Origin: Actinophytocola xanthii
GTDB taxonomy: Bacteria > Actinomycetota > Actinomycetes > Mycobacteriales > Pseudonocardiaceae
Assembly (NCBI RefSeq): GCF_001921205.1
Contig: NZ_MSIE01000085.1
Coordinates: forward strand, 1 to 40,715
Length of the DNA stretch: 40,715 nucleotides
Direction of reading: 5' to 3'
Shown here: positions 12,806 through 27,916 of the stretch, one piece after another
Layout: the number at the start of each line of letters is the position of its first letter
Position numbering within the stretch: the stretch's first letter is position 1
The notes under the pieces: model-generated
What the model was told of the DNA's origin: nothing
Database searches by the model: none
The model's input: the letters and a program-made list of their open reading frames with translations, nothing else
Position numbers and translations under genes: made by a program

Positions 12806-13453
12806 TCATCCGCGAGGAGCGCCGAGCTCCTCGCGCACCCGCGCCGTGGACAGCACCCGCGCGCAGCTACGCGCCGCGTAGCCGAGCGCCCGGCGGTGCT
12901 CCTCGAGCGAGAAGTCGGCGAGCGCGTCGGCGGCCAGGAACGGCTGGATGTCCAGCGTGAACGCGTCGACCGCGGTCAGCAGGCAGCCGAGGTTGGCGTA
13001 GACGCCACAGACGATCACCTGGTCGCGCCCGAGCCGGTCGAACAGCTCCCGCAGCCCGGTGCGGTGGAACGCGCTGTACCGCCACTTGGTCACGACCGTG
13101 TCGCGCCGGCGCGCGGCCAGCGGCTCGACGATGCGCCGGTGCTCGGGGCTCGTGCTCATCCCGGGCCCCCAGAAGTCCCGCAGCAGACCACGTTGCTCCC
13201 GGCTCATCCCGCCGGGTTGGGCGGTGTAGACGACCGGGACGCCGTGCGCGTCCGCGGTGTGCCGCAGCAGCGCGATGTTCTCGACCAGAGTGGTCACCGG
13301 CTCCTGCCCGGGGCTGAACGGGTCCACGAAGTACTGCTGCATGTCGTGCACCAGCAGGACCGCCCGGTGCGGGTCGGGCGACCACCCCACCCGGTTCTCG
13401 GGCAGCTCGGGCTCGGTCGGCATCGGGTACCCGGCGATCGGCGCCACGGCCAC
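12806..13453 (-). CDS. PhzD-like isochorismatase (ADIC hydrolase)
   Basis: A 215-residue isochorismatase-family hydrolase, close to PhzD in length and active site: Asp37 in [10 protein letters not shown], Lys123 in TKWRYSAF, and [18 protein letters not shown], where PhzD has a near-identical stretch. The family enzyme removes pyruvate from 2-amino-2-deoxyisochorismate to give trans-2,3-dihydro-3-hydroxyanthranilate. There is no extra carrier domain as in EntB/DhbB, so it works on free substrate. The GTG start follows GGAGGAGATC. It is the last gene of the eight-gene minus operon, 12 bases behind the dehydrogenase. With the PhzE-like gene on the opposite operon it completes a 3-hydroxyanthranilate route. 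Confidence 0.92.
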
Positions 13454-13465
13454 GATCTCCTCCTC

Positions 13466-14242
13466 TCAGCCGCCCAGCGCGGCGCCGCCGTCCACGTACA
13501 GGTCGTGCATGGTGATGTGGCCGGCCAGCTCGGAGGCGAGGAACACCACCGCGTCGGCGACCTGCTCGGGCCGCGCCAGCCGGCCAAGCGGGATGCCGAC
13601 CCGGAAGGCCTCCGGCGAGCCCGCGACGACCGCGCGTGCCCCGTCCGCACCGTCCCACATGGACCGCTGCATGGGCGTGTCGGTCGAGCCGGGCGAGACC
13701 ACGTTGCACCTGATCCCGTGGGACGCCAGCTCGAGACCGAGGCACTTGGTGAACGCGACGGTCGCCGCCTTCGACGCGGCGTAGGCCGCCATGTCGACCC
13801 GCGGGACGCCCGCGGCGTTGGACGCCACGGTCACGATCGCGCCGGACCTGCGCCGCACCATCCGGCGCGCCACGGCACGGGACACGTGGAACACCCCGTC
13901 GGCGTTCACGGCGAACACGGCCCTCCAGTCGGAGTCGCTGAGCTCCACGACCGGTCCGGTGCGGAGCACGCCGGCCGCGTTGACCAGGATCCCCACCGGC
14001 CCCAGCGCCGCCTCCACGGTGGCGACGACCTTCTCGACCGCGTCGGCGTCCCGGACGTCGGCCGGGAACGCGAGCAGCCGCCCGGGCAGCCGGGTGGCCA
14101 GCCGCCGGAGCGCCTCGCCGTTGACGTCCACGCCGGCGACGGTGACGCCGTTGGTGCAGAGCGCCTCGCTCACCGCGGCCCCGATTCCCTGTGCCGCACC
14201 GGTCACCAGCGCGACCTTGCCGGCGATCCCCAGCTCCCTCAT
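13466..14242 (-). CDS. SDR dehydrogenase, DhbA/EntA-like (dihydro-3-hydroxyanthranilate dehydrogenase)
   Basis: A 258-residue classical short-chain dehydrogenase: TGAAQGIG (cofactor loop, residues 14-21), VNAAG (about 90), catalytic Ser in VASNA (about 143) and YAASK (Tyr/Lys near 155-159), ending [12 protein letters not shown]. It most resembles 2,3-dihydro-2,3-dihydroxybenzoate dehydrogenases. Next to a PhzD-like enzyme the expected reaction is oxidation of trans-2,3-dihydro-3-hydroxyanthranilate to 3-hydroxyanthranilate, as established in the nataxazole and A33853 pathways. The ATG overlaps the stop of the FAD monooxygenase (ATGA). The substrate assignment rests on context. Confidence 0.88.
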
Positions 14243-15447
14243 CTCCGCGCCCCGTCGGTCCGGCCGACCGCCGCCGCGACACGCTCGGCGTCGTGACCGA
14301 AGAGCCATGCCCGGCTGTCCAGCTCCCAGTCGTCGTCCAGTGTTCGGTCCCGGGCGTGTTGGCCGGGACCGTCCAGGAGGTGGTGGTCGCGCTGGTTGTC
14401 CGCGACGAAGCGGCGGACCCTGGCCACCCGGGGGCGCCGGATCCGCTCGTAGCGGCGCAGCGCGTGCGGCACGGTGTCCGCTGAGGACCGCGCGAGGAGC
14501 GCGGCGAGCGTGACGGCGTCCTCGACGCCTTGGCTGAGCCCCTGGGCGCCGAACGGCAGCATCGGGTGGGCGGCGTCGCCGACCAGCGTGGTGCGGGCGC
14601 CACTCCAGCGCGCCGGCTCCGGCCGGTCGTGCAGCGCCCACCGGGAGACGCTCTCCGGCGCGGCCAGCAGGGCGCGCAGGACCGGGCTCCAGCCGGTGTA
14701 GGCGGCGAGCAGGTCGGACACCTCGCCCCGGACCGACCACGACTCCTCCCGCCAGTCCCCGGCCGGCGTGCTGGCGGCGAAGCTGAGCCGCCGGCCGGCC
14801 GAGATCGGGTAGCACACGCAGTGCCGGCCGGGACCGACCCAGATGCTCACGTCGCCACCGGAAATCCCGGGCACCGCGGCGATGTCGACGACGCCGCGGA
14901 AGACCGCCTGGCCGGAGGGGCGCGGGGCGTCCTCGACCAGGCACCCGCGCACCACCGAGCGGATCCCGTCGGCGCCCACGACCACGTCGGCCTCCGCCAC
15001 CGAGCCGTCGGCGAACTCCACCCGCGCCGTCCCGTCCAGCTCGCGCACCCCGACACAGCGTCGGCCCAGCCGCACGACCCCGGCCGGTACCGCGTCCAGC
15101 AGGCACCGCTGCAGGTCGGCGCGGTGCACGGTCAGGTAGGGGGCGCGGTAGGCGCGTTCGCAGTCCGCGCCGAGCACCGTCGAGGTGAGCAGGCGGCCGT
15201 CGTCCCACCGCCGCACCTCGATCGCTCCCGGCCGGGCCGCCACCCGGTCCAGCGCGGGCCCGAGGCCCAGCTCCAGCAACGGCCGCGTTCCGTTGGGAGA
15301 CAGCTGGATTCCCGCGCCGACCGCGGCCAGCCCGCCCGTCTGCTCGAACACGCGACACTCGATTCCGTGCCGCGCCAACGCCGCCGCCAGGGTCAGACCC
15401 GCCATGCCGGCGCCGACGACGGCCACCCGGAGACTCCGCTGGGCCAC
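14239..15447 (-). CDS. FAD-dependent monooxygenase, salicylate hydroxylase-like
   Basis: A 402-residue group A flavoprotein hydroxylase: [13 protein letters not shown] (FAD ADP-binding, residue 12 on), [10 protein letters not shown] (about 155-165, the DG motif) and [16 protein letters not shown] (about 287, FAD ribityl binding). It matches the salicylate 1-hydroxylase / 3-hydroxybenzoate 6-hydroxylase branch, whose members hydroxylate para or ipso to a phenol, sometimes with decarboxylation. On 3-amino-4-hydroxybenzoate an ipso attack at C1 would give an aminohydroquinone; this is inference. The GTG start is preceded by GAGGAGGATC. It is the sixth gene of the minus operon, with the ligase stop 26 bases upstream. 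Confidence 0.88.
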
Positions 15448-15473
15448 ACCGATCCTCCTCGCCTCCGCACCGC

Positions 15474-16757
15474 TCAGTGGTAGAGCAGCGCCTTGCCCCA
15501 GTCCTCGTCGGCACCGAACAGGCTGCGCGGCTTGACCACGTCGTGCGAGGCGGTGAGCACCTCGGTCGGGACCAGGGTGCCGGGCTCGACACCGGTCACC
15601 GCCACCTCGACGCCGTAGGCGGCGCGGACCGCCGCGGTGAGCGCCGAGACCGCCGCCCTCCGGTGCGCCGCGGCGACCTCGATCTCGACGGTCAACCGGT
15701 CCGGCTCGGCCCTGGCACGCCAGAAAAGCACCCCGTAGTGCGCCGGGAGCTCGAAGACCAGCTCCTCCAACCGGTTCTGGGTGACCGTCGCCGAGCCGAC
15801 CGGGTAACCGAAGGCGGACCGGCCGAGCACCCGCACGGTCGGCAGCGGCGAGCCGCAGTCACAGCCGGCGTAGCTGACCTCCACGGTGTCCTCGAGGTTG
15901 TACCGCAGCAGCGGCATCGCCTCGCGGAACAGCGGGGTGACCACCAGCTGGCCGCGGCCCTCCCGCCCGGTCCGGCCGGTGGCGGGGTCGTGGACCTCGA
16001 ACAGCGCCCGGTCGGCCCACAGGTGCAGGCGCTGGCACCGGCACTCGCCGGCGAGGCTTCCCGTCTCGGTCGAGCCGTACTCCTCCACCACCGGCACGTC
16101 CCAGATCTCGGTGATCCGGCGTCGGCGGGCTGGGGTCAGCGGCTCGCCTCCGACGAACAGCGCGCGCAGCGCGGGGAAGTCCGCACCCGGCCGGCGTCCG
16201 GCGGCCTCCGCCGCGGCCGCCCACAGCAGCGTCTCGGTCGGCATCGACCAGGTGAGCGTGACCTCGAGGTCGTGCAGTACCCGTACGACCCGCGAGTACG
16301 GCATGGCCAGCGAACGGTTGTCGCCGGGCACGACCGTGGCGCCGTGGCGGCGGGCCGCGGCCTGCGCCAGGTGACCGGTGATCATCAGCGCGTACGGCGT
16401 GCGGACCAGGAACACGTCGGACTCCTCGATCGGGATCCGCTTGCGCGCGTAACGCTCCGCCAGGTCCACCCAGTCGCTCTCGGTGTAGTAGGAGGGCGTC
16501 GGGGTGCCGGCGGTGCCGCTGGACTCGTGGTAGGTCGCCAGCTGCCGCTTGGGCACCGCGAGCATGCCGAACGGGTAGGCCTCGCGCAGGTCCTGCTTGG
16601 TGGTCAGCGGCAGGGTCGCCAGGTCCGCCCGGCAGCGCAGGCCGGACAGCGCCGTGCCGAACCGCTCGCGGTAGAACGGCGAGCGGCCCGCGGCGGCCAG
16701 CACCTCCGGGATCCGACTGTCCTGTAAGTGCTCCAGCTCCTCGCCGGTTCCGAACAT
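15474..16757 (-). CDS. Phenylacetate-CoA-ligase-like adenylating enzyme
   Basis: A 427-residue member of the PaaK-type branch of the ANL superfamily. Visible motifs are the phosphate loop [15 protein letters not shown] (about residue 75), [15 protein letters not shown] (about 225) and [12 protein letters not shown] (about 283, with the conserved Asp), then a short C-terminal domain. Such enzymes activate aryl acids as acyl-AMP and often as CoA thioesters; homologues activate 3-hydroxyanthranilate in benzoxazole pathways. The substrate here is probably 3-hydroxyanthranilate or 3-amino-4-hydroxybenzoate. A Cys cluster (GECRCQ and CDCGS) resembles the zinc site of some PaaK relatives. Codon 11 is TTA (16725-16727). 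The ATG follows GGAGGAGTGAGC and starts 3 bases after the amidohydrolase stop. Confidence 0.9.
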
Positions 16758-16759
16758 GC

Positions 16760-17512
16760 TCACTCCTCCCCCAGCAGCCGCAGCGCGTTGCCCGCGGAGA
16801 TCAGCCGCCAGTCGCGGTCGGCCAGGCGCAGCGCGGCGAACTTGGCCAGTTCGACCCGCGGGTGCTGCAACGGGTACTCCGTGCCGAACACGAGCCGGTG
16901 GGCACCGAGCCGGTCCAGTGCGACCCGGAGCGTCGCGGTGTATCCGCCCGAGGTCTCGACGGAGATGTTGGGTTCGCCGGCGACGAGGCCGACGCCGAAG
17001 GTGTCGATCAGGGTCACGCCCAGGTGCCCGAGGACGAACCGGACGGCGGGGAACCTCCTGGCCAGCGCGACCAGGTCGGCCACCCTCGCTCCCGGCCGGG
17101 GCAGGCACACGACGTAGACCGGGTGCGCGGCCCGCTCCGCGACCGCGACCAGCCGGACCGTCCGGGGGTCGGTCAGCGCGACGCCGTGCACGGCCGGCGA
17201 GAGCTCGAGACCGCGGAACTCGCCGGTACGGGCGCGGTAGTCGTCCGGGTCGCGGTGGGGGTTGGCGAAGAAGAAGGGCAGCAGCCGCCCGGCGGACCCG
17301 GCGCAGGCGGCGAGCACGGCGTCGTTGTCCGCGTCCTCGTCCGCGTGGCCGCCCTCGACGACCTGCCGGGAGAGCCTGTCCAGCTCGATCACACCGCCGG
17401 CCGACACGGCGGCGCGGCCGATGCCGTTGTCGTCCATCGCCGCGAGCAGCCGGTCGAGGGCGTCGGGTCGCGGCACGAACCTGGCGTGGAAGTCGATGAC
17501 GGGCGTACGCAC
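16760..17512 (-). CDS. Atypical amidohydrolase-2 family protein
   Basis: A 250-residue TIM-barrel protein of the amidohydrolase_2 family. The first strand reads VIDFHARF instead of the usual DxHxH, so the second His is Arg. After strand 5, HPVYVVCLP lacks the family's metal-binding His at the usual place. Strand 6 keeps its His in VLGHLG, and strand 8 has FGTEYP with Glu instead of Asp. Normal zinc hydrolysis is therefore doubtful. Homologues in benzoxazole pathways (BomN/NatL2 type) act in reverse, closing the heterocycle by condensation, so a cyclase role fits the context. The GTG start is 5 bases from the upstream gene's stop and is led by GGAGCGG. Confidence 0.82.
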   Translation of the reverse strand: MRTPVIDFHARFVPRPDALDRLLAAMDDNGIGRAAVSAGGVIELDRLSRQVVEGGHADEDADNDAVLAACAGSAGRLLPFFFANPHRDPDDYRARTGEFRGLELSPAVHGVALTDPRTVRLVAVAERAAHPVYVVCLPRPGARVADLVALARRFPAVRFVLGHLGVTLIDTFGVGLVAGEPNISVETSGGYTATLRVALDRLGAHRLVFGTEYPLQHPRVELAKFAALRLADRDWRLISAGNALRLLGEE

Positions 17513-17517
17513 GGCGG

Positions 17518-18618
17518 CTACCGCTCCAGGCAGAACTCGTCGATGGGGTAACCGACGTGCCGGTCCGCGGTGGGCAGGTACCCGAGCACGCGGTCTCCCG
17601 GCTGGAGCTCGGTGCTGTTCAGCACCGTCCCCTGTGGACCCAGGACGCGGACGTGCCAGTCGTCCTGCAGGATCAGGTTCACCCGCTGCCCGTCCGGCGC
17701 CACCGCGTCGATCGACAGCAGCGGGCGAGTCTCGATCTTCACCCGGCCCACGGTCACGGCCCTGGTCTGCCCCTTGACGTCGACCGCCAGAACCGTGCTC
17801 CCGGCGGCCAGCTCGCTCAGGTAGCTCGTGCGACCGTGCTCGGCGACGGTGTAGGAGTGGATGGCTCCGGCGTTGACCCGGAAGGGCCGGGTCGGCATGT
17901 ACGGCAGCGGGTGGGTCTCGCTGACGCAGAGGATCATCCCCTTCGAGTGGGAGCCGACCAGGATCCCCTCGTCCTCCCGCAGGTACGAGCAGGTGTCCAC
18001 ACAGGCCCGCTCACCCATGCCGGCGTGCTCGGTCGCGACGACCTCCAGCTCGACCAGCTCGAGAGGGCCGGGCCGGGTGGTCGCGGCGGCCTTGAGCGCG
18101 GTGGCGTCGCCGACCGCTCGCGGCGCGAGCAGCACGCCGTCGGAGCCGTGTTCGAGCACCCCGAACACGATCCGCGCCTCCGCCACGTCCGCCACCGCGC
18201 TCACCGTGCTCCCGGTGGCACCGCTGGCCGCGGCGAGCACGATCTCGAGAGGGATCTTGGTCGGGTCACGGAACTCGAGCACGCTCCACCGTTCCGAACG
18301 GGCCGCCGCGCAGGCGAGGTCGAGCGTTGGCTTGTCCACGATCTCGACGTACCGGCCGAGTTCGAGCTCGGGGTGGGCCGCGGCCAACGGCTCCGGGAGC
18401 ACCTCCCCCGGGCCGAGCAGGACGATGTCGACGCCGTCGAGCCGCTCGGGGAGCCCACCGGTCGGCGCGAGCAGCACCTTCCGGACGGTCGGCGGCAGAC
18501 CGCGCAGCACGCCGGGGTCGGCGGCGACGACCGCGTCGACCCGCTGGTGCACCGCCTCTTCGAGGATCGCGTCCAGTCCGGACCGGACGGCACGCACGTC
18601 GAGCCAACAGAGTTTCAC
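17518..18618 (-). CDS. 3-Dehydroquinate synthase II family, GriH-like (3,4-AHBA synthase)
   Basis: A 366-residue protein of the archaeal-type 3-dehydroquinate synthase II family, starting KLCWLDVR (expected first strand) and continuing with VVATEHAGMGERACVDTC, GILVGSHSKGMILCVSETHPLPYMPTRPFRVNAGAIHSY and YLSELAAGSTVLAVD. In the grixazone pathway GriH converts the GriI product into 3-amino-4-hydroxybenzoate. The canonical shikimate pathway in actinobacteria uses an unrelated AroB, so a copy beside an aldolase and an aspartate kinase strongly points to 3,4-AHBA. The GTG start at 18618 follows AGGAGACCTGAC. It lies between the GriI-like aldolase and the amidohydrolase in the same operon. Confidence 0.92.
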   Translation of the reverse strand: MKLCWLDVRAVRSGLDAILEEAVHQRVDAVVAADPGVLRGLPPTVRKVLLAPTGGLPERLDGVDIVLLGPGEVLPEPLAAAHPELELGRYVEIVDKPTLDLACAAARSERWSVLEFRDPTKIPLEIVLAAASGATGSTVSAVADVAEARIVFGVLEHGSDGVLLAPRAVGDATALKAAATTRPGPLELVELEVVATEHAGMGERACVDTCSYLREDEGILVGSHSKGMILCVSETHPLPYMPTRPFRVNAGAIHSYTVAEHGRTSYLSELAAGSTVLAVDVKGQTRAVTVGRVKIETRPLLSIDAVAPDGQRVNLILQDDWHVRVLGPQGTVLNSTELQPGDRVLGYLPTADRHVGYPIDEFCLER

Positions 18619-18653: not shown

Positions 18654-19466
18654 TCAGGTGGCGGGCACGGACTCGAGCCGGCCGCGCGGCCCGCCCAACC
18701 GGCCGTGGACGAGCGCGGCCACGCGGCGGGCCAGCAGCGCCGGGTCGGCCGCCCGGAAGATGTTGCGGCCCATGGCGAGGCCCGCCACCCCGCCGCGCAG
18801 CGCCTCCCCGACGAACGCGACAACCTCGTCGTCGGACGCCAGCTGCGGCCCGCCGGCGACCAGCAGCGGGATCGGGCACGCCCGCGTGACCTCGGCCATC
18901 TCCGCGGCCGTGCCGGCGAACGGGGTCTTGACGATGTCCGCGCCGAGGTCGGCGGCCAGCATCGCGGCGTGCAGCACCAGCTCCGGGTCCCGCGGGTCGG
19001 TGATGCGCGGGCCGCGCGGGTACATCATCGCCAGCAGCGGCACGTTCCACCGGTCGCAGACGTCGGCGACAGAGCCGAGGTCGGCCACCTGGCTCCGCTC
19101 GTCACGCGAACCCAGGTTCACCTGCACGCTCACCGCGTCCGCCCCCAGCCGCAGCGCCTCCTCCACCCCGCTCACGAGGTACTTGGCGTCGGGGTCGGGC
19201 GCGTGCACGGTGCTGGCACTGAGATGGATGACCAGCGACAGCCGGCTGAAGCACTCGTGGCGCACCCGGCGCAGGCTTCCCTTGTGCAGCACCACGGCGT
19301 CCACCCCGGTGCCCGCCAGGGCGGCCACCACGTCGTCGAGGTCACGCCCCGGGACAAGCCGACCCGCGCTGACCGAGTGGTCCAGCGGGACGACGAACAG
19401 CCGCTCGCCGCTGTGCCGGTAGAGCCGGCGCAGCCTCAGCTCGCGGGCGAAGTGGTTGACCGACAT
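18654..19466 (-). CDS. GriI-like aldolase (C7 precursor of 3-amino-4-hydroxybenzoate)
   Basis: A 270-residue class I aldolase of the DeoC/FbaB superfamily. Key features are the N-terminal PLDHSVSAG, the Schiff-base Lys180 in GADIVKTPF, LLVAGGPQ, and the phosphate-binding end VAGLAMGRNIFRA. GriI in Streptomyces griseus joins L-aspartate semialdehyde and dihydroxyacetone phosphate to make the C7 amino sugar acid precursor of 3,4-AHBA; length and motifs agree with that group. An archaeal-type ADH synthase reaction is the alternative. The ATG is preceded by GAGGGGGAAGC and lies 9 bases past the aspartate kinase stop. It forms a substrate-channel-like gene order with aspartate kinase and the GriH homologue. 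Confidence 0.93.
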   Translation of the reverse strand: MSVNHFARELRLRRLYRHSGERLFVVPLDHSVSAGRLVPGRDLDDVVAALAGTGVDAVVLHKGSLRRVRHECFSRLSLVIHLSASTVHAPDPDAKYLVSGVEEALRLGADAVSVQVNLGSRDERSQVADLGSVADVCDRWNVPLLAMMYPRGPRITDPRDPELVLHAAMLAADLGADIVKTPFAGTAAEMAEVTRACPIPLLVAGGPQLASDDEVVAFVGEALRGGVAGLAMGRNIFRAADPALLARRVAALVHGRLGGPRGRLESVPAT

Positions 19467-19475
19467 GCTTCCCCC

Positions 19476-20786
19476 TCAGACGGCGATGTCACGGGCCGCG
19501 GCGTCACGGTCCACGGCGGTGCGGTACACGGCGTCACGGTCCACCGCCTCGCCGCCGGCCGGACCGAGCCCGAACTCCTCGTGCAGCAGGGTCACCGCCT
19601 CACACACCCGCTCGCGCGGCACGGTGGCCGAGGCACGCAGCTGGGAGGTGGACACCCAGCTCGTCGCGATCCCGGCCGCGGCGAGGACGGCGATCATCCG
19701 CGCCACGTACGCCGGCCGGTTCAACAGCCCCATCCCGATCAGCGACACCTTCCCGACGCCGTCGTCGACCCGCACGTCACCGCCGCGGCTGCCGGCCGAC
19801 TTCTCCAGGGCTGCCCGCACGTCGGCCACGTCGCTGCGCCGGATGGTGAACCCCATCCGGAACTCGTCCTCCTGCGGCCCCGACCGGGCGACCAGGTCGA
19901 CCGGTACCGCGTTGTGCGCCAGGATCTCCAGAATCTCCGCGGCGAGGTCGGCCCGCCCTCGGCAGTGCACGAGAACCCTGGCCACGTCCAGGTCGTGGCT
20001 GACCGCGACCACCGCTCCGCTCGTCTCCAGCAAACCCACGCCTCCCCGCCTCGAAACGACCGTTCCCGCACCGGGTCCGGTGGCGCTGCGCACCCGCAGC
20101 TCGACTCCTGTCATCGCGGCGAGCTCCACCGCACGGGAGTGGAGCACCCCCGCGCCCGCGAACGACATCTCGGCCATCGCCTCCGGGGTGATCCGCGGCA
20201 GCTGCCGGGTCCGGGGCACGACCCGCGGGTCGGCCGAGCGGACCCCGTCCACGTCGGTGAACACCTCGCAGCGGTCCGCCCCCATGGCCGCCGCCACCGC
20301 GACGGCCGTGGTGTCCGAGCCGCCACGGCCCAGCGTCCGCACGTCCCCCGCCCGGTCGGCCCCGTGGAACCCGCCGACCACGGCCACCCTGCCCGCCTCG
20401 AGCAGCTCGGCCATCCGACCGGTGTCGATCCGGTCGATCATGGCGCCGCCGTGCCGGCCGGTTACCCGGATGCCCGCCTGCGGACCGGTCAACGAGACCG
20501 CCGGGACACCCAGCCGGGCCAGGGTTATCGCCAGCTGGGCGGCCGCCGCGCACTCGCCGGTTGCGAGGAGCTGGTCGACCTCGCGGGCGGCGAAGGAGCC
20601 CACCGCGCCGCCCGCGACCTCCTCGGAGAGCCGCAGCAGCTCGTCGGTGGTGTCGCCGCGGGCGGAGACGACGACCACCAGCCGGCGCCAGCGGCGGTGC
20701 GAGTCGGCGACGCGACGCGCGACCGACCGAAGTTTGTCCACAGTCGACAACGAGCTGCCACCGTACTTCTGCACCAGGACCGCCAT
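19476..20786 (-). CDS. Aspartate kinase (cluster-borne, precursor supply)
   Basis: About 436 residues from the ATG at 20786 (MAVLVQKYGGSSL, the expected start); an ATG 42 bases upstream is also open. The kinase domain shows KYGGSSL, VVVSARGDTTDELL and LGRGGSDTTAVAVA (aspartate/ATP site), and the C-terminal half has two ACT-like domains. It phosphorylates aspartate on the way to aspartate semialdehyde, the GriI substrate, and is the first gene of that operon. The C-terminus has an unusual tail in which VDRDA is repeated (30-base DNA repeat at 19501 and 19531). Whether feedback inhibition by Lys/Thr is lost cannot be judged without alignment. Confidence 0.92.
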   Translation of the reverse strand: MAVLVQKYGGSSLSTVDKLRSVARRVADSHRRWRRLVVVVSARGDTTDELLRLSEEVAGGAVGSFAAREVDQLLATGECAAAAQLAITLARLGVPAVSLTGPQAGIRVTGRHGGAMIDRIDTGRMAELLEAGRVAVVGGFHGADRAGDVRTLGRGGSDTTAVAVAAAMGADRCEVFTDVDGVRSADPRVVPRTRQLPRITPEAMAEMSFAGAGVLHSRAVELAAMTGVELRVRSATGPGAGTVVSRRGGVGLLETSGAVVAVSHDLDVARVLVHCRGRADLAAEILEILAHNAVPVDLVARSGPQEDEFRMGFTIRRSDVADVRAALEKSAGSRGGDVRVDDGVGKVSLIGMGLLNRPAYVARMIAVLAAAGIATSWVSTSQLRASATVPRERVCEAVTLLHEEFGLGPAGGEAVDRDAVYRTAVDRDAAARDIAV

Positions 20787-21057: not shown

Positions 21058-22668
21058 TTGAGCGTGCGACAGCTGCCCGGAAGACCCGCCCTCGACGAGC
21101 GGGTACTTGTCGTCGGCGCGGGCCCGGTGGGGTCGGTCCTCGCGCTGGAGCTCGCCAGGCACGGCGTGGGCAGCACGGTCGTCGACCGGTCCACCGCGGC
21201 GCCGGCGTTCCCGAAGATGGACTACCTCAACGGCCGGACGATGGAGCTGCTCCGCCGGCTCGGGCTCGCCGACGAGGTCCGGCGCGGCGGCGTGGACACC
21301 CGGCTGAGGTCCGACTTCATCTGGACCGACACCCTCACCCGCCCACCGATCGCCACCTGGCACTACCCGGCGCCGGACACGCTGGCCGGGGAGCTCGGCG
21401 AGGTCGACGACGGGTCGGCGCCGCTCGAGGTGTACCAGCGGATCCCCGGCTCCCTGCTCGAGAACCTGCTGCGCCGCCGGCTGCGCGAGCACCCGCTGGT
21501 GGACCTGCGGGAGGGCTGGACGTTCACCGACCTCGACGAGCGGCCCTCGGGGGTGGTCGCCTCACTGGTCGCGCGGGACGGGGGCGCCAGACACACCCTC
21601 CACGCCCGGTACCTCGCCGGCTGCGACGGGGCCAACAGCGTCGTGCGCCAGTGCCGCGGCATCCCGATGCCCGCGGCGGGACCGGTCACCAGCCGCTGCT
21701 CGGTGTACTTCACCTCCGCCGACCCCCTGCTGCGCCGCCACGGCCGGGCGTTCGTGACCGTCGGTGCCAAGGGCATCACGCTCGTGTCGCGGGACGAGGA
21801 GGACACCTGGACCGCCTCGTTCCAGGTCCCGACCGACGAGCCGTTCGTCGGCGACCCGGTCGAGGTCATGCACGACATGCTCGGCGCCGAGTTCACCGTG
21901 GACGAGGTGATGGGGGTCGGCCAGTGGCAGGGCTCGCTCGCCGTCGCCAGCCGTTACCGGGTCGGCCCGGTGTTCCTCGCCGGGGACGCGGCGCACCAGT
22001 TCTATCCGTTCGGCGGACACGGCGCGAACACCGGAATCGCCGACGCGGTCGATCTCGGCTGGAAGCTGGCGGGGGCCGTACACGGCTGGGGCGGCGACCG
22101 GCTGCTCGACAGCTACGAGGCCGAACGACGCCCGGTGGCGCTGTTCAACCGCGAGATGTCCGCGGACCTGCTCGAGGTGTGGGGCCGGTTCGTCCGGCTG
22201 GCCGCCGACGGCGCCTCCCGCGGCCACATCGGGGGCTTCCTCGACCGCGAGTCCCACCAGCTCGACAACCTCGGTGTCCACTTCGGATACCGGTACACCT
22301 CGTCCCCGGTCGTGGTGCACGAGCCGGGCCCGGCACCCCGCTGGGACTGGCACCGGATCGAGCCCACCACCTGGCCCGGTGGTCGCGCGCCCTCGGTGCG
22401 GCTGTCGTCCGGTACCGCACTGTTCGACCGGTTCGGCACCGGATTCACGCTCGTGGACCTCACCGGAACCGGCGCGGGCGAGGTCGCGGTGAAGGAGGCC
22501 CTCGGGCAGGGGATTCCGATGGAGCGCCTGGCCGTCGACGAGGCCGCCGTCCGGGCGGTCTGGGAACGCGACCTCGTGCTCGTCCGTCCCGACCAGCACG
22601 TCGCCTGGCGCGGCGACACAGTGCCGGACGACTGGTCTGCCGTCCTCGACGTCGTGTGCGGCCGTTGA
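21058..22668 (+). CDS. FAD-dependent aromatic hydroxylase (MhpA / polyketide hydroxylase type)
   Basis: About 536 residues from a TTG at 21058 (a GTG at 21064 is also possible; GGAGGAAGAGG lies at 21041-21051). The order of motifs is that of group A hydroxylases: VLVVGAGPVGSVLALELA near the N-terminus, GCDGANSVVR (about 190), and FLAGDAAHQFYPFGGHGANTGIADAVDLGWKLA (about 305). A C-terminal thioredoxin-like domain follows, as in MhpA, phenol hydroxylase and OxyS-type enzymes. It probably adds a hydroxyl ortho to a phenol on one of the aminophenol units. It leads the plus operon and is 40 bases before the PhzE-like gene. The exact substrate is unknown. Confidence 0.9.
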   Translation: MSVRQLPGRPALDERVLVVGAGPVGSVLALELARHGVGSTVVDRSTAAPAFPKMDYLNGRTMELLRRLGLADEVRRGGVDTRLRSDFIWTDTLTRPPIATWHYPAPDTLAGELGEVDDGSAPLEVYQRIPGSLLENLLRRRLREHPLVDLREGWTFTDLDERPSGVVASLVARDGGARHTLHARYLAGCDGANSVVRQCRGIPMPAAGPVTSRCSVYFTSADPLLRRHGRAFVTVGAKGITLVSRDEEDTWTASFQVPTDEPFVGDPVEVMHDMLGAEFTVDEVMGVGQWQGSLAVASRYRVGPVFLAGDAAHQFYPFGGHGANTGIADAVDLGWKLAGAVHGWGGDRLLDSYEAERRPVALFNREMSADLLEVWGRFVRLAADGASRGHIGGFLDRESHQLDNLGVHFGYRYTSSPVVVHEPGPAPRWDWHRIEPTTWPGGRAPSVRLSSGTALFDRFGTGFTLVDLTGTGAGEVAVKEALGQGIPMERLAVDEAAVRAVWERDLVLVRPDQHVAWRGDTVPDDWSAVLDVVCGR

Positions 22669-22708
22669 CCCCTCCCCCGCTCTCCACCGTCCCACCTGGA
22701 GCTACCGC

Positions 22709-24682
22709 ATGCCCGAACCCGCACCCACCACCGACGCCGACGCCACCCTCCGCGCCCTGGCCTCGGCGCCGGGCCAGGCCTTCGCCCTGCTGCACCGGCC
22801 CGAGGCGACCGGGGCCGGACGGCTCGAGCTGCTGCTCGGCGAGGCGTCGACGGCGCGGTGCCTGGCGGACCTCCCCGTGCCGGCAGCGCCCGGCCACGGC
22901 GCCCGCCACGACCTGCTGGCGGTCGTCCCGTACCGCCAGCTGACCGAGCGGGGCTTCGCCTGCCACGACGACGGCGAACCCATCCTGACCCTGCGGGTGC
23001 GGCGGTGCCAGCGGCTGGACCGGGCGGACGTGCTGCGCTGCCTTCCCGACATCCCGGTCAGCGTGCGCGACGGGCGGTTCGACCTGGACGACGACGCCTA
23101 CGCCGAGGTCGTCCGGCGCGTGCTGGCCGAGGAGATCGGGCGCGGCGAGGGGGCAAACTTCGTGATCCGCCGGGAGTTCCTCGCGACCCTCGACGACTAC
23201 TCGGTCGCGACGGCGCTCTCGGTCTTCCGCCGCCTGCTGGCCGTCGAGCCCGGCGCGTACTGGATCTTCTGCGTGCACCTCGGATCCCGGACCTTCCTCG
23301 GCGCCACCCCGGAACGGCACGTCAGCCTCGCGGCCGGCGAGCTCGTGATGAATCCGGTGAGCGGCACCTACCGCTACCCCCCGTCGGGACCTCAGCTCGC
23401 CGAGGTGGTCCGCTTCCTCCGCGACCGCAAGGAGACCGACGAGCTGTACATGGTGGTCGACGAGGAGCTCAAGATGATGGCCGCGCTGTGCGAGGGCGGA
23501 GGCCGGGTGCGGGGGCCGTTCCTCAAGCAGCTGGCCCGGGTGGCGCACACCGAGTACCTGATCACCGGGAACAGCGGGGCCGACGTGCGGGAGATCCTGC
23601 GGCAGACCATGTTCGCGCCCACGGTGACCGGCAGCCCGCTGGAGAACGCCTGCCGGGTGATCGCCCGGCACGAGCCGACCGGCCGCGGCTACTACAGCGG
23701 CGTGCTGGCACTCCTCGGCCGGGACGCCAGCGGCGGGCCGGCACTGGACTCGGCGGTGCTGATCCGGACCGCGGACCTCGACGCGGGTGGCCGGCTGCGG
23801 CTCGGCGTCGGCGCGACGCTCGTGCGGGAGTCCGACCCGCGGTCGGAGGCGGCGGAGACGCGGGCCAAGGCGGGTGCCCTGCTCGCCGCGCTCGGGATCG
23901 GGGAACCGGGCCACCGGGCGGCGCCGGGCCGGACCGCCCTGGCCATCGGCGACCACCCGCTGGTCCGCTCGGCGCTGGGCAGGCGCAACGCCAACCTGGC
24001 GCGCTTCTGGGTCGACCCCGGGCAGGGCCGGACCGGCCGGCAGCGGCTGGTCGTCCCCCGGCTGCTCGGCAGACGTGTCCTCGTCGTCGACGCCGAGGAC
24101 ACGTTCACCGCGATGCTGGCCCACCAGCTGGCCGCGCTCGGCACCACGGTCACCGTCCGGTCCTGCCACCGCCGGCCGGAGCTGACCGGGTTCGACCTCG
24201 TGGTGCTCGGCCCCGGCCCGGGCGACCCGCGGGACCGGCGGCTCCCCACGGTCGCGGCGCTGCACGGGATGGTGGAGGAGCTGCTGGCGGCGGGCACCAG
24301 CTTCCTCGCGGTGTGCCTGGCCCACCAGGTGCTGTGCTCGGCACTCGGTCTCCCGCTGGTCCGCCGGGAGCGGCCGCACCAGGGCGTGCAGCGGGAGATC
24401 GACCTGTTCGGCCGGGCGGAGCGGGTCGGCTTCTACAACAGCTTCGCCGCGGTCGGCGACCGGTCCACGCTCGTCCGCTCGGCCGCCACCGGGCCGGTCG
24501 AGCTGAGCCGGGACCCGGTCGACGGCCAGGTGCACGCGCTGCGCGCGGCGCGGTTCGCCTCCACCCAGTTCCACCCGGAGTCGGTGCTGACCCGGCACGG
24601 CCCCGAGATCCTCGCCGGGCTGCTGGTCGCGACGCTCGGCGAGGAGAGCACGGCGCTGGCGGCCGGCGGAGTGGGGAGCTGA
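22709..24682 (+). CDS. PhzE-like 2-amino-2-deoxyisochorismate synthase (fused synthase and glutaminase)
   Basis: A 657-residue fusion. Residues 1-430 are a chorismate-binding domain with GATPERH at 198-204, ETDELYMVVDEELKMM (about 245) and the SGAD/GSPLENACRVIARHEP region. Residues about 450-645 are a class I glutamine amidotransferase with LGPGPGDPRD, nucleophile Cys536 in AVCLAHQ and His622 in QFHPES. This architecture is shared with PhzE, which aminates chorismate at C2 without pyruvate loss. An anthranilate synthase is the alternative, but the PhzD-like gene in the same locus, and the absence of other tryptophan genes, favour 2-amino-2-deoxyisochorismate. The ATG follows GGAGC, and the next gene starts 2 bases after the stop. 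Confidence 0.92.
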   Translation: MPEPAPTTDADATLRALASAPGQAFALLHRPEATGAGRLELLLGEASTARCLADLPVPAAPGHGARHDLLAVVPYRQLTERGFACHDDGEPILTLRVRRCQRLDRADVLRCLPDIPVSVRDGRFDLDDDAYAEVVRRVLAEEIGRGEGANFVIRREFLATLDDYSVATALSVFRRLLAVEPGAYWIFCVHLGSRTFLGATPERHVSLAAGELVMNPVSGTYRYPPSGPQLAEVVRFLRDRKETDELYMVVDEELKMMAALCEGGGRVRGPFLKQLARVAHTEYLITGNSGADVREILRQTMFAPTVTGSPLENACRVIARHEPTGRGYYSGVLALLGRDASGGPALDSAVLIRTADLDAGGRLRLGVGATLVRESDPRSEAAETRAKAGALLAALGIGEPGHRAAPGRTALAIGDHPLVRSALGRRNANLARFWVDPGQGRTGRQRLVVPRLLGRRVLVVDAEDTFTAMLAHQLAALGTTVTVRSCHRRPELTGFDLVVLGPGPGDPRDRRLPTVAALHGMVEELLAAGTSFLAVCLAHQVLCSALGLPLVRRERPHQGVQREIDLFGRAERVGFYNSFAAVGDRSTLVRSAATGPVELSRDPVDGQVHALRAARFASTQFHPESVLTRHGPEILAGLLVATLGEESTALAAGGVGS

Positions 24683-24684
24683 GG

Positions 24685-26724
24685 ATGGAGATCCGCACCT
24701 CGGTCCTGGGGTTCCTGTCGGCCCGGCTGCTCGACCGCGAGGCGGGCGGGGCGTTCACCGCCACCGACGTGACCGGGCGCCGGCCGCTGTGCCGCGACAA
24801 GCGGCTGGTCGACCAGGCCGCCGCCGTGTTCGCCCTCGCCGAGCACGAGCACGAGGACCTCGGGGTCGCGCTGACCGGCCTGCACCGGCTGCTCGACCCC
24901 CACGGCCAACCCGGGTTCGTCGAGGTGACCGACCGGTACTGGCGGGTGCTCCCGGCCGGGCGCACCCGCACCCTGCGGCTCCAGCTCCTCGCCTCCACCG
25001 CACTGCTGACCGCCGCCCACCGCCGCGACGACGACGAGCTGCGGGTCCACGCCGTCGACCTGCTCAACCGCTGCCTGAGCACGGCCCGGGACGGCAGGCT
25101 TCCCGAGGCGGTCACCGAGGACTGGCGCGCGGTGCGCGGCAACCCCTCCTCGCCCCGGGCCGGCGCCGCCGCGGTCCGGGCCCTGGCCGTCGCCGACCTG
25201 CTCGGCGAGTCCGACGTGGACACGGCGGTGCTGCCGCTGGTCGCCGACCGGCTCCGCGAGCTGGCCGAGGTCCCGCGGCCCGAGCACCTCACCGACTGCG
25301 CGGGGCTCACCCGGACCGCGATCGCACTCGCCCACGCCGGCCGGCTGCTCGCCAGGACCGCCGACCTCGCCGTCGCCCAGCGCGTGCTGCGCTCGGCCGT
25401 GGACAACTTCCACGACCCCGAACTCGGCGGCTTCTGGGACCGCCGACCGTGCCCCGGCGCGGTGCTCCCGCCGGTCAAGCGGACAGCCGACGCGGCCGAC
25501 CTCCTGCTGGCCGGGCGGCTGGTGCGCTCGTGCGGGCTCGACGACCACGGCGTGGCCCGGCTGGCCGAGTCGGCCCTGCGCGAGCTCGCCGACGAGGACA
25601 ACGGCGGCTTCTACGCCGGCGTCGGCTACCACTGGGCCACGCCGAGCGACCCGGTCGCGCCCGCCGTCCAGCAGCTGCTGCCCGCTCCGGCCGGGAGCGC
25701 CGCGCACGGCGGCGACGACCGAGGCTCGCTGCCGCTGCACCGCAAGACCACGCTGGTGCACGCCCGCCTGGCGCGGGTGGCCCGGGACGCCCCGGCCCGT
25801 CCGACACGTGAGCGGGGCGAGGACCGGAAGCGGCCGAGCCACCTCGCCGGTGCGCTGCCCGGCGACGGGGCGGCCTGCCCGGTGCCGACCGTCCCGCGGG
25901 TGGACCCGACCGTCGCGCTGCCGGTGGACCGGGAGCGGCACCTCAACGCGATCCGGTCGGGGGCGCGGCGCATCCGCCGGGTCAGCGCCGCCTACCGGCT
26001 GATTGCCGACACCTGGCTGCTCGCCCGAGGGCTGCCGCGCAGCTGGCCGCCGGTCGCGCTGGTGTGCGCCGCACAGAACGGGGACGGCGGGTTCGGCGAA
26101 TGCCCCGGTCAGGACAGCGACGTGGCCAGCACCCACGGGGGTGTGGTCGGGCTGCTCCTGGCCGGCGCGCTCGGCCAGCTCTCCCCGGCCGTGGCCGACT
26201 ACCTGCACGCCTGCCGCCGGCCCGACGGCGGGTTCGGCGCGGTGCCCGGCATGCGCTCCGACGTCTCGCACACCCACCTCGCGGTGGCCGCGCTGCACGC
26301 CCTCGGCCTGGACGGGCGGTGGCCCACGGACGGGTGCGCGGCGTTCCTGGCCTCCTGCCGGGTCGGGTCGGGCGGGTTCGGCGCGCGGCCGGGACACCCG
26401 GCGAACACGCTCGCCACCCGGCGGGCGGTGGCGACCCTGCGGCTGCTCGGTGCCGAGATCCCCGACCGGCAGGGCCTGGTGCACTGGCTGCGGGCGTGCG
26501 AGACCGGGACCGGGGCCTTCGCCCATCGCCCCGGCCACGCCGCGAGCACGCTCGGCACCTGCCACGCGCTGGCCGCGCTCGCCCTGCTCGACGCGCCCGA
26601 GGGCCCGACCGGCCGGTCCCCCGAGGGCGACCCGGGAGCGGTCGAGGACGGGTTCCACTACCTCCAGTCGGTCGCTGTGCGCAACGGCGCGGTCGGCCAG
26701 GACTGGATCGCCCTGATCAGCTGA
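24685..26724 (+). CDS. Alpha/alpha-toroid protein with prenyltransferase/squalene-cyclase-type repeats, function unknown
   Basis: A 679-residue protein with no recognised catalytic signature. The C-terminal 240 residues hold four regular repeats about 48 residues apart, with glycine-rich turns at about 465 (DGGFGECPG), 513 (DGGFGAVPG), 561 (GSGGFGARPG) and 608 (GTGAFAHRPG), each followed by a Thr/Ser-rich helix start and a small-residue helix. This is the pattern of protein prenyltransferase beta subunits and squalene-cyclase-like toroids. The N-terminal half has looser turns (PELGGFWDR near 249, DNGGFYAG near 309), suggesting a second toroid. No class II DxDD motif is present. DGC near 547 and TCH near 625 faintly recall the zinc-site region of prenyltransferases, without a clear zinc His. 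It lies between the PhzE and DAHP synthase genes and is tightly coupled to PhzE, so it belongs to the pathway. Confidence 0.7.
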   Translation: MEIRTSVLGFLSARLLDREAGGAFTATDVTGRRPLCRDKRLVDQAAAVFALAEHEHEDLGVALTGLHRLLDPHGQPGFVEVTDRYWRVLPAGRTRTLRLQLLASTALLTAAHRRDDDELRVHAVDLLNRCLSTARDGRLPEAVTEDWRAVRGNPSSPRAGAAAVRALAVADLLGESDVDTAVLPLVADRLRELAEVPRPEHLTDCAGLTRTAIALAHAGRLLARTADLAVAQRVLRSAVDNFHDPELGGFWDRRPCPGAVLPPVKRTADAADLLLAGRLVRSCGLDDHGVARLAESALRELADEDNGGFYAGVGYHWATPSDPVAPAVQQLLPAPAGSAAHGGDDRGSLPLHRKTTLVHARLARVARDAPARPTRERGEDRKRPSHLAGALPGDGAACPVPTVPRVDPTVALPVDRERHLNAIRSGARRIRRVSAAYRLIADTWLLARGLPRSWPPVALVCAAQNGDGGFGECPGQDSDVASTHGGVVGLLLAGALGQLSPAVADYLHACRRPDGGFGAVPGMRSDVSHTHLAVAALHALGLDGRWPTDGCAAFLASCRVGSGGFGARPGHPANTLATRRAVATLRLLGAEIPDRQGLVHWLRACETGTGAFAHRPGHAASTLGTCHALAALALLDAPEGPTGRSPEGDPGAVEDGFHYLQSVAVRNGAVGQDWIALIS

Positions 26725-26747
26725 GATCGGCGACGGGAGGCAGAGGA

Positions 26748-27872
26748 GTGCGGGTCTCGACGAGGACGGCGCCGGCGTGGGCGGGCCTGCCGGCGGCCCA
26801 GCAGCCGCACTGGCTGGCGCACCCGGCGCGCTCACGCGTACTGGACACGCTCGCCGGCCTGGAGCCCCTGGTCACCCCGGCCGAGCTGGACACGCTGCGG
26901 GGTGCGCTGGCGGAGGTGGCCGCCGGGCGTGCGAGGGTGCTGCAGGCGGGCGACTGCGCGGAGAGCTTCCACGGGTGCACCCCCGGCGCCACCGCCGCCA
27001 GGCTCGAGGTCCTCGACCGGCTCGCCGACGCCCTCGCCGAGCGGACCGGTGCCCCGGTGGTGCGGGTAGGCCGGATCGCCGGGCAGTTCGCCAAGCCCCG
27101 GTCGAGCCCGACGGAGCTGTGCGGTGGGGTCACGCTCCCCGCCTTCCGCGGACACATGATCAACTCTGAGGTGCCGACGGCCGCCGCCCGTGCCCACGAC
27201 CCACGCCGGATGGTGTGGGCGTACCAGGCGAGCGCGCGGACGGGTGCCTGGGTCGCCTCGGCCAGGGTCGGGCGGGCCGGCCCGTGGACCTCCCACGAGG
27301 CGCTCGTGCTCGACTACGAGGCCGGGCTGGTGCGGACCGACCCGGCGAGCGGGAAGCCGTTCCTCGGTTCGACCCACCTGCCCTGGGTCGGCGAGCGGAC
27401 CCGGCAGCCGGAGAACGCGCACGTCCGCCTGCTCGGCGCGGTGACCAACCCGGTGGGGTGCAAGGTCGGGCCCACCGTCGCACCGCCGGACCTGGTGCGG
27501 CTGTGCGCGCTGCTCGACCCGGAGCGGCTGCCGGGGCGCCTGGTGCTGATCGCCAGGATGGGGGCCGGCAGCATCGAGCGGGTGCTTCCCGGGCTGGTCG
27601 CGGCGGTGGCCGGCGGTGGGCATCGGCCGGTGTGGCTGTGCGACCCCATGCACGGCAACACCGTCACGGCGGCGAGCGGCCGCAAGACCCGGTACGTGGC
27701 GACGATCATCGCCGAGGCGGCGGGGTTCGCCAGGGTGATGGAGCGGACCGGGCAGTTCGCCGGCGGCCTGCACCTGGAGACGGCACCTGGGGTGACCGAG
27801 TGCGTCGGGGGCGCGGTACCGGACGAACGGCGCTCACGGCTCACTACACGACACTGTGCGATCCGAGGTTGA
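26748..27872 (+). CDS. Class II DAHP synthase, 3' end out of frame
   Basis: The GTG at 26748 is 7 bases after GGGAGG and gives a 374-residue reading. Class II DAHP synthase motifs are clear: LQAGDCAESF (metal Cys), VRVGRIAGQFAKPRS, GSTHLPWVGERTR, NPVGCKVGP, WLCDPMHGNT (metal His), and HLETAPGVTECVGG (metal Glu). The enzyme joins phosphoenolpyruvate and erythrose 4-phosphate and supplies chorismate to the PhzE-like enzyme. After VGG the reading becomes unrelated residues and stops at 27872, while the expected end YTTLCDPRLN continues in another frame to 27916. That missing segment carries the family's metal-binding Asp (Asp441 in the M. tuberculosis enzyme). A one-base loss or sequencing error between about 27813 and 27844 is the simplest reading; repaired length would be about 389. 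Confidence 0.88.
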   Translation: MRVSTRTAPAWAGLPAAQQPHWLAHPARSRVLDTLAGLEPLVTPAELDTLRGALAEVAAGRARVLQAGDCAESFHGCTPGATAARLEVLDRLADALAERTGAPVVRVGRIAGQFAKPRSSPTELCGGVTLPAFRGHMINSEVPTAAARAHDPRRMVWAYQASARTGAWVASARVGRAGPWTSHEALVLDYEAGLVRTDPASGKPFLGSTHLPWVGERTRQPENAHVRLLGAVTNPVGCKVGPTVAPPDLVRLCALLDPERLPGRLVLIARMGAGSIERVLPGLVAAVAGGGHRPVWLCDPMHGNTVTAASGRKTRYVATIIAEAAGFARVMERTGQFAGGLHLETAPGVTECVGGAVPDERRSRLTTRHCAIRG

Positions 27873-27916
27873 ACACCGAGCAGGCGCTGGAGTGTGTTGA
27901 GGGGTTGGTGGGCTAG
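27845..27916 (+). other. Frame-displaced C-terminal segment of the DAHP synthase
   Basis: In the -1 frame relative to the gene, 27845-27916 encodes YTTLCDPRLNTEQALE and then CVEGLVG before TAG. This is the normal end of class II DAHP synthases, including the CDP motif with the metal-binding Asp at 27860. Its TAG overlaps the stop of the convergent aldo/keto reductase gene, which supports 27916 as the ancestral end. Confidence 0.85.

Follow-up and report, generated by a model that had tools for sequence, protein, structure and literature searches.

We describe a biosynthetic gene cluster of the actinomycete Actinophytocola xanthii that encodes enzymes of two aminophenol routes, one leading to 3-hydroxyanthranilate (3-HAA) and the other to 3-amino-4-hydroxybenzoate (3,4-AHBA). 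The cluster lies on contig NZ_MSIE01000085.1, which was analysed over its entire length of 40,715 bases (hereafter, the window) and belongs to a draft genome of 204 contigs totalling 8.34 Mb and estimated to be 97.7% complete. We favour as the product a dibenzodiazepinone, the three-ring skeleton found in diazepinomicin (an anticancer compound that has been in trials), probably made in this case without a farnesyl tail. This structure is preferred to a benzoxazole because the eight-gene operon order of the window recurs 10–14 kb from an ABBA gene at eight loci of the diazepinomicin type. An earlier note on this DNA, made from the sequence alone, had regarded the union of the two routes as unusual and probably new; it is not new, and the window most likely holds an unfarnesylated, widespread variant of an existing arrangement.

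Cluster layout and the link to diazepinomicin

The core of the cluster consists of two divergent operons, at 12806-20828 on the minus strand and 21010-27872 on the plus strand. The former, whose genes are spaced -4 to 35 bases apart, encodes PhzD, DhbA, FMO1, a ligase, the amidohydrolase AmH, GriH, GriI and aspartate kinase; the latter, with 2 to 40 bases between genes, encodes FMO2, PhzE, a 679-aa two-domain protein and a 3-deoxy-D-arabino-heptulosonate 7-phosphate (DAHP) synthase. Such spacing argues for organisation rather than chance. Families were assigned using Pfam and NCBIfam profiles and PDB sequence matches, with 30 window proteins scanned against Pfam. In the list below, ADIC stands for 2-amino-2-deoxyisochorismate and DHHA for 2,3-dihydro-3-hydroxyanthranilate.

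12806..13453, minus strand: PhzD-like isochorismatase, predicted to convert ADIC to DHHA (Pfam Isochorismatase; best PDB match PhzD 1nf9, E 1.5e-66)
13466..14242, minus strand: DhbA-like dehydrogenase, predicted to convert DHHA to 3-HAA (TIGR04316, 349.5 bits, cut-off 300; start set by translation; 4-base overlap with the FMO1 gene)
14239..15447, minus strand: FMO1, FAD monooxygenase (PDB and NCBIfam matches)
15474..16757, minus strand: NatL2/AjiA1-like (PaaK-like) aryl-acid ligase (PDB 6siw, 6wuq)
16760..17512, minus strand: AmH, amidohydrolase and candidate ring closer (Pfam PF04909, Amidohydro_2)
17518..18618, minus strand: GriH-like 3,4-AHBA synthase (Pfam DHQS, 358 bits; NCBIfam BagC/FevH, 596 bits, under the cut-off of 750)
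18654..19466, minus strand: GriI-like DhnA-type aldolase (Pfam DeoC, the DeoC/LacD aldolase family; BagB/FevI, 379.5 bits, under the cut-off of 500)
19476..20828, minus strand: aspartate kinase, proposed supplier of aspartate semialdehyde (Pfam AA_kinase; TIGR00657 above cut-off)
21010..22668, plus strand: FMO2, class A FAD monooxygenase with an aromatic-ring-hydroxylase C-terminal domain (Pfam FAD_binding_3 and Rng_hyd_C; PDB matches RebC and other phenol and polyketide hydroxylases)
22709..24682, plus strand: PhzE-like enzyme, predicted to convert chorismate to ADIC (PDB PhzE 3r74, E 6.7e-201, residues 23-646)
24685..26724, plus strand: 679-aa two-domain alpha/alpha protein (Pfam Prenyltrans; low-confidence model)
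26748..27872, plus strand: class II DAHP synthase (Pfam DAHP_synth_2, 390 bits)

All the enzymes that the earlier note had named for the two routes were found in these operons, and profile and PDB matches agree on the presence of both routes in one cluster; FMO1, FMO2, the 679-aa protein and a probable leftward extension of the cluster are additions to its gene content. GriH, GriI and the ligase are, by their profile scores, relatives rather than members of the exact bagremycin/ferroverdin families, since they score below the cut-offs of those models.

We then searched for related loci with the ligase as the query, scoring few candidates per genome, so that the genome counts are lower bounds. 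At E 1e-60, matches occurred in at least 9 of 394 genomes across the class and in at least 4 of 60 genomes of the host family, Pseudonocardiaceae, in which NCBI also places Gandjariella (the window's genome being included in both counts). At E 1e-50, at least 59 genomes matched among 354 from the family that includes a Micromonosporaceae metagenome-assembled genome (MAG; G455), and all but three of the 59 (G465, G565, G782) were fetched. A pattern scan of named genomes contributed 14 loci, from Gandjariella, Actinokineospora, Glycomyces, Phytoactinopolyspora, Blastococcus, Rhodococcus, Actinacidiphila, Saccharothrix, four Streptomyces and two MAGs. Altogether, 78 loci were compared gene by gene, and the 70 with at least 8 kb on both sides entered the class counts (8 with less were left out), the 3,4-AHBA route being scored when GriH or GriI, and the 3-HAA route when PhzD or PhzE, passed an identity threshold. 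Both routes were detected at 40 of these loci (window included), only the 3,4-AHBA route at 22, only the 3-HAA route at 2, and neither at 6, in a set that is weighted to Micromonosporaceae, undercounts divergent copies and contains near relatives that are not independent. The eight genes for PhzD, DhbA, FMO1, AmH, GriH, GriI, aspartate kinase and PhzE were all present at 20 of the 40 two-route loci, and the operon order is kept across Pseudonocardiaceae, Micromonosporaceae and Streptomyces globisporus. By this comparison, the core-forming genes seem to occur widely and mostly without farnesylation genes, with no linked ABBA gene at 32 of the 40 two-route loci.

Diazepinomicin, whose tricyclic core has been described as structurally unique in nature, is farnesylated by DzmP, an ABBA enzyme that acts on a dibenzodiazepinone and whose gene is flanked by those for an HMG-CoA synthase and a two-component sensor (PMC3871700). 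The ABBA family PF11468 was found in 10 of the 59 ligase-bearing genomes, and in 8 of these it sits 10.3-13.7 kb from the ligase gene. All eight of these Micromonosporaceae loci carry both routes in the order of the window, PhzD-DhbA-FMO1-ligase-AmH-GriH-GriI-aspartate kinase, with PhzE divergent; an FMO2-like gene lies on the PhzD side in all eight, and a DAHP synthase was seen within the stretch in five. Ten proteins scanned at one of these loci (G541) comprise a polyprenyl synthase, two GHMP kinases, diphosphomevalonate decarboxylase, HMG-CoA reductase, HMG-CoA synthase, the ABBA enzyme itself, a multicopper oxidase, a sensor kinase and a response regulator. The ABBA protein of another (G677), read from an internal Met, has 296 aa, the published length of DzmP, and contains Arg51. 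Diazepinomicin (BU-4664L, ECO-4601; from Micromonospora) has the same published 3-HAA set as the window, PhzE, PhzD, DhbA and DAHP synthase (PMC5958127), and the dibenzodiazepinone, which the earlier note had listed among its two best scaffolds, gains accordingly from the shared gene order, the comparison being with the ABBA loci rather than with the deposited cluster. As differences, the genome of the window has no ABBA or HMG-CoA reductase gene, and the window carries nitroreductase, cupin, transporter, methyltransferase, DsbA-like and toroid-protein genes.

Diazepinomicin orf33, 19, 27 and 26 are listed as homologues of lim3-6 (PMC5958127). If PhzE is equated with 19, DhbA with 26, PhzD with 27 and DAHP synthase with 33, the numbering agrees exactly with the gene order in G677, where six genes separate 19 from 26 and five separate 27 from 33. 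Because this requires two of the four numbers to be swapped relative to the paper's listing, we rejected it as proof that G677 carries the diazepinomicin cluster and retain it as a hint only.

The absence of a farnesyl tail had been predicted in the earlier note from the lack of a UbiA prenyltransferase and of mevalonate genes in the window. That conclusion stands, on a different basis: because DzmP is an ABBA enzyme (PMC3871700), UbiA is the wrong enzyme type, and we replaced it with PF11468 and HMG-CoA reductase (PF00368) as markers, neither of which had a match in the whole draft genome. No mevalonate-pathway family appeared among the 30 scanned window proteins, and UbiA itself matched five times above its cut-off and once below, none of these on this contig. 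By this gene content, the product is probably unfarnesylated, and prenylation by a gene elsewhere in the genome is unlikely. In the ligase tree, the eight ABBA-locus ligases fall on one side of a single branch (support 88/97; recovered in 90% of 200 bootstrap trees), so placed that farnesylation seems to have been added once, inside a larger family; the window ligase branches outside this group, without a well-supported partner. One genome (G787) carries two clusters, one with a linked ABBA gene (L084/L085) and one without (L096).

A proposed route to the core

Gene content, gene order, family membership and the conserved donor residue of the ligase (below) are direct observations; from them we infer the substrates, the order of coupling and oxidation, the ring closure and the product. 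PhzE, PhzD and the DhbA-like dehydrogenase would convert chorismate to 3-HAA, the source of ring A and the amide carbonyl, with the extra DAHP synthase raising chorismate supply, and aspartate kinase, GriI and GriH would make 3,4-AHBA, the source of ring B, from aspartate semialdehyde and dihydroxyacetone phosphate (DHAP). The ligase would adenylate 3-HAA and couple it to the aminophenol as an ester or amide, FMO1 would swap the ring-B carboxylate, para to the hydroxyl of that ring, for a hydroxyl with loss of CO2, and FMO2 would add a second hydroxyl ortho to the ring-B hydroxyl. Attack of the 3-HAA amine on the resulting quinone, perhaps helped by AmH, would then form the seven-membered ring. 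This scheme would explain each heteroatom of a 4,6,8-trihydroxy-dibenzodiazepinone core, with the C3 nitrogen of 3,4-AHBA becoming N10, the C4 hydroxyl marking C5a, C5 giving the C6 hydroxyl, and the C1 carboxylate giving way to the C8 hydroxyl.

The most useful result of this analysis is a revised route to ring B, from aspartate semialdehyde and DHAP via 3,4-AHBA. Decarboxylating hydroxylation at C1 and hydroxylation at C5 would turn 3,4-AHBA into a unit that matches ring B of the 4,6,8-trihydroxy core; 3-amino-5-hydroxybenzoate (3,5-AHBA) would also fit chemically, so the genes have to decide. The synthase of 3,5-AHBA belongs to the DegT family. At all eight ABBA loci, the operon encodes GriI and GriH, and DegT-family genes are absent up to 30 kb from the ligase (the nearest being about 35-36 kb off, in G783 and G787). 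This gene content suggests that ring B of diazepinomicin derives from 3,4-AHBA, and not from 3,5-AHBA, to which it was assigned by speculation (the McAlpine 2008 proposal as given in PMC3871700). A search covering parts of the diazepinomicin literature returned no statement of a 3,4-AHBA origin for ring B and no paper that mentions grixazone alongside diazepinomicin.

From its relatives, FMO1 is likely a decarboxylative 1-hydroxylase of 3,4-AHBA or its conjugate, and FMO2 is likely the second ring-B hydroxylase. The PDB matches of FMO1 are, best first, tropone 2-monooxygenase (8rqh), decarboxylative vanillate 1-hydroxylase (8x38) and 4-hydroxybenzoate decarboxylase (8gsm, named as deposited); further matches include 6-hydroxynicotinate 3-monooxygenase and salicylate hydroxylase (6bz5); its best NCBIfam model, 3-hydroxybenzoate 6-monooxygenase, scored below cut-off. 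FMO1 was found at 38 and FMO2 at 33 of the 40 two-route loci, and AmH, FMO1 and FMO2 are all lacking at both 3-HAA-only loci.

The ligase and AmH stand out as the enzymes that would join two unlike aminophenols. For the ligase, this agrees with the earlier note, in which the PaaK-like ligase and the amidohydrolase joined the two units. Its closest PDB entries are 6siw (E 2.5e-163, residues 6-426) and AjiA1 6wuq (E 1.1e-162), and we infer that 6siw is NatL2 from its kinship to AjiA1, the NatL2 paper and the fit of residue numbers. AjiA1 dimerises 3-HAA (PMC11497795), and NatL2 activates one 3-HAA by adenylation and links it as an ester via the 3-OH of another, with Glu235 binding the hydroxyl of the donor 3-HAA and Arg156 holding the acceptor carboxylate (PMC7204872). 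In a residue alignment, the window ligase conserves the donor Glu235, the zinc ligands C248, H254, C308 and C310, and Lys418, and four of the six acceptor-pocket residues (T128/T135/R156/W178/A211/A212), Ala211 and Ala212 being replaced by Gly/Gly. Across the 75 of 76 extracted ligases that passed a length filter for the tree and pocket table, Glu235 is present in 34/34 two-route, 8/8 ABBA-locus, 2/2 3-HAA-only, 22/25 AHBA-only (Asp in the other 3) and 1/6 neither-route ligases. Gly occupies position 211 in all 34 two-route and all 8 ABBA-locus ligases, in 11/25 AHBA-only, 1/2 3-HAA-only and 1/6 neither-route ligases; position 212 is Gly in 74 of the 75, and hence uninformative. This pattern fits an unchanged donor, 3-HAA, and perhaps a changed acceptor, but shared descent alone could also produce it. 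Arg156 is invariant in the alignment (75/75), so that coupling may precede decarboxylation. No relative of the ligase was found in the plasmid collection at E 1e-40.

AmH is a protein of 250 aa with a confidently predicted model (predicted local distance difference test score, pLDDT, 94.6). Its unvarying position next to the ligase, together with the analogy to amidohydrolases that perform condensation in benzoxazole biosynthesis, leads us to propose a ring-closing role, with decarboxylation or hydrolysis as the alternative. It is present at all 40 two-route loci, at 13 of the 22 AHBA-only loci, at neither of the 3-HAA-only loci and at 1 of the 6 with neither route. Candidate metal ligands are H9, H109 or H130, H163 and E212; in a conservation table of 57 of 59 sequences, H109, H130, H163 and E212 are kept in 55-57 of the 57, and H9 falls under the 95% limit. 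NatAM, the condensing amidohydrolase of nataxazole, has about 494 aa and holds zinc on His75/His77 (PMC7204872). AmH carries His-x-Arg at that site in 12 of 15 aligned members, and it lacks both the length of NatAM and any sequence match to it (PDB search up to E 0.01, in a copy whose content of NatAM was not checked), a distant NatAM- or ClxD-like function being possible. The sole PDB sequence match up to that threshold was 2,3-dihydroxybenzoate decarboxylase (E 0.004). We also considered AmH as a plain decarboxylase, which it may be: in the fold comparison, dihydroxybenzoate and carboxyvanillate decarboxylases rank first, yet at 12-20% identity and mostly 6-8 Å root-mean-square deviation. 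Hydrolases of the 2-pyrone-4,6-dicarboxylate type, which rank close behind, and uncharacterised amidohydrolases give a better superposition, at about 4 Å. A literature search found nothing linking condensing amidohydrolases, benzoxazoles and decarboxylation.

The 679-aa protein combines an N-terminal epimerase-like alpha/alpha barrel with a C-terminal toroid resembling prenyltransferase beta subunits, its predicted folds being the beta subunit of Rab geranylgeranyltransferase (RabGGTase) and sugar 2-epimerases. In the fold comparison, the toroid is 27-28% identical to RabGGTase beta over ~184 columns. Prenyl transfer by this protein was rejected, given that it has neither a D-x-C-Y/F zinc motif nor a DxDD motif and that its model has a low pLDDT of 68. 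Locus L036 encodes a full-length relative (41%) at 17125-19290, and in L032 and L039, proteins related to the N-terminal half are encoded between PhzE and DAHP synthase.

Competing explanations

Several observations weigh against the dibenzodiazepinone. Tropone 2-monooxygenase and 3-hydroxybenzoate 6-monooxygenase, the best single matches of FMO1, are not known to decarboxylate their substrates, and the window FMO2 is only 41-45% identical to the FMO2-like gene product of the ABBA loci, where the gene is on the other side. With Arg156 kept in all 75 ligases, the acceptor may still carry its carboxylate, and NatL2 forms esters, not amides (PMC7204872). GriH/GriI occur without PhzD/PhzE at 22 of the 70 loci. 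The DAHP synthase seems frameshifted as assembled, which may be real or an assembly error: its Pfam match ends at position 406 of 438, and the last ~40 codons seemingly lie in another frame (27750-27916, running up to 27916; reading frames judged by eye). The identification of the eight ABBA loci with the diazepinomicin cluster is drawn from the genes present, their neighbourhood and the length of the protein; of the two Arg residues published for DzmP, the second (64) is at 65 in the G677 protein, the sensor gene does not adjoin the ABBA gene in G541, and the listing order of lim3-6 would make orf19 the dehydrogenase and orf26 the PhzE homologue. Finally, we know of no product from this strain or from the unfarnesylated loci.

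A benzoxazole, which the earlier note had ranked with the dibenzodiazepinone, is now disfavoured and appears unlikely. Here, the ligase would make an ester of 3-HAA (the acyl part) and 3,4-AHBA, AmH would close the oxazole like NatAM or ClxD/PfxB, and the monooxygenases would only decorate the product. The ligase is indeed nearest to NatL2 and AjiA1, enzymes of benzoxazole pathways, it adjoins an amidohydrolase as in closoxazole and nataxazole, and it keeps Arg156 for an acceptor carboxylate. However, AmH is half the length of NatAM, with no match to it and with His-x-Arg at the zinc site, two monooxygenases would have no evident role, and the same gene set also occurs next to ABBA and mevalonate genes, DzmP being a known farnesyltransferase of the ABBA type that acts on a dibenzodiazepinone. 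The window shares with the nataxazole type the kind of ligase and the 3-HAA building block but differs in the Gly/Gly pair at 211/212, the shorter amidohydrolase, 3,4-AHBA as the second aminophenol and the two monooxygenases. With closoxazole (ClxA-E, PfxA-E), it shares GriI/GriH-type 3,4-AHBA synthesis, a PaaK-like ligase and an amidohydrolase, but it has one ligase instead of two, also makes 3-HAA, and its ligase is far nearer NatL2 than 9s3l (E 8.4e-52), which we take to be ClxA.

Coupling of the aminophenols as an open-chain ester or amide, or oxidatively to a phenoxazinone-type product, without a seven-membered ring, is less probable still. The best NCBIfam model of the ligase is the bagremycin/ferroverdin synthetase BagE/FevW, a proposed ester former, at 562 bits against a cut-off of 800, but the 30 scanned window proteins include no phenoxazinone-synthase (the copper-type GriF included), tyrosinase or tyrosine ammonia-lyase family, and AmH is kept at every two-route locus. 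Grixazone and bagremycin/ferroverdin share GriH/GriI (BagC/BagB) with the window by family, no direct comparison with GriH and GriI themselves being involved, and bagremycin also has the PaaK-like BagE and a DAHP synthase; the window adds the 3-HAA route and scores under the cut-offs for BagE, BagB and BagC. Least probable of all, and very unlikely, is a pair of independent pathways yielding two products: either route does occur alone (22/70 and 2/70 loci), but the genes of both are packed into one operon with a single ligase, in an order kept across families. Mycemycin, a dibenzoxazepinone, was rejected as the closest system, given that, in the available part of its literature, it is made from anthranilate and salicylate; the available part of the ahbamycin literature has no mention of an amidohydrolase or of 3-hydroxyanthranil-.

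The dibenzodiazepinone reading could be extended to a more ambitious account, which as a whole we consider doubtful, if less so than the benzoxazole. In that account, a large family of clusters would make dibenzodiazepinones from two aminophenols, AmH would be a new diazepine-closing condensing enzyme, farnesylation would have arisen late in one clade, ring B would be 3,4-AHBA with the published 3,5-AHBA assignment wrong, and the toroid protein might replace farnesylation in the window's branch.

Flanking genes and other loci

The cluster may well extend to the left, probably spanning from about 4.2 kb to 27.9 kb, because the following genes recur beside the core at some related loci:

4227..4763, minus strand: cupin, possibly tailoring or regulatory (Pfam Cupin_2; 69% identical copy beside the G773 cluster)
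5061..6539, plus strand: major facilitator superfamily (MFS) transporter, probable exporter (Pfam MFS_1; 63% identical copy at G773)
6536..7150, plus strand: nitroreductase-family flavoenzyme (NF003768, 250.6 bits, cut-off 152; 67-70% identical copies at Gandjariella, EFPC_2 and G773)
7123..9999, minus strand: LuxR-family regulator with an AAA domain, 958 aa (Pfam AAA_16 and GerE; at 21/40 two-route loci, window included)
10190..10930, minus strand: DsbA/FrnE-like protein (Pfam DSBA; 60-69% identical copies at 5 other loci; start set by translation)
11193..12008, plus strand: S-adenosylmethionine-dependent methyltransferase, possibly tailoring (Pfam Methyltransf_25; 70% identical copy beside the Gandjariella cluster; start set by translation)
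11981..12739, plus strand: alpha/beta hydrolase, start uncertain (Pfam Abhydrolase_6; 65% identical copy at G773)

Among these, the nitroreductase, methyltransferase, cupin and DsbA-like proteins may tailor the core. The genes to the right of 27.9 kb, encoding an aldo-keto reductase, two regulators, and beta-helix, BNR and esterase proteins, look unrelated to the cluster. The regulators, helix-turn-helix proteins with DUF5753 and MmyB-like ligand-binding domains, adjoin it at 29445-31407 (plus strand). Polymer-degrading genes occur on both flanks, namely, a family 18 glycoside hydrolase (GH18) chitinase with a ricin-type lectin domain at 2754-4205 (minus strand) and the beta-helix, BNR_4 and polyhydroxybutyrate-esterase proteins at 34437-38674 (plus strand). 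A viral structure library yielded nothing useful, and PADLOC (three proteins) nothing relevant.

The AHBA-only loci (L095, L109, L114, L115, L117-L119, L123-L129, L131-L133 and five from other sets) combine GriH/GriI and the ligase, to which most add FMO1/FMO2 and the LuxR regulator, and have no PhzD/PhzE within about 10 kb. They may obtain 3-HAA from elsewhere, since 22 of the 25 AHBA-only ligases keep the 3-HAA-binding Glu. Two further loci, L093 (G745) and L024/L025 (G142), carry the ligase with DhbA, PhzD and PhzE, and GriH/GriI, AmH and FMO1 were not found there; these are possible 3-HAA-only, benzoxazole-like clusters, and at each of the NatL2 acceptor-alanine positions, one of their two ligases has Ala. 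Cluster type varies even within the genus of the window, where L056/L057 (G424), from a sister species, represent an AHBA-only version with a ligase 62% identical to that of the window. The 3,4-AHBA-only loci L041 (Streptomyces typhae) and L042 (S. huiliensis) encode FMO2, AmH, the ligase and a methyltransferase-like match; their ligases form a branch of their own, and their AmH has Arg where most have His9.

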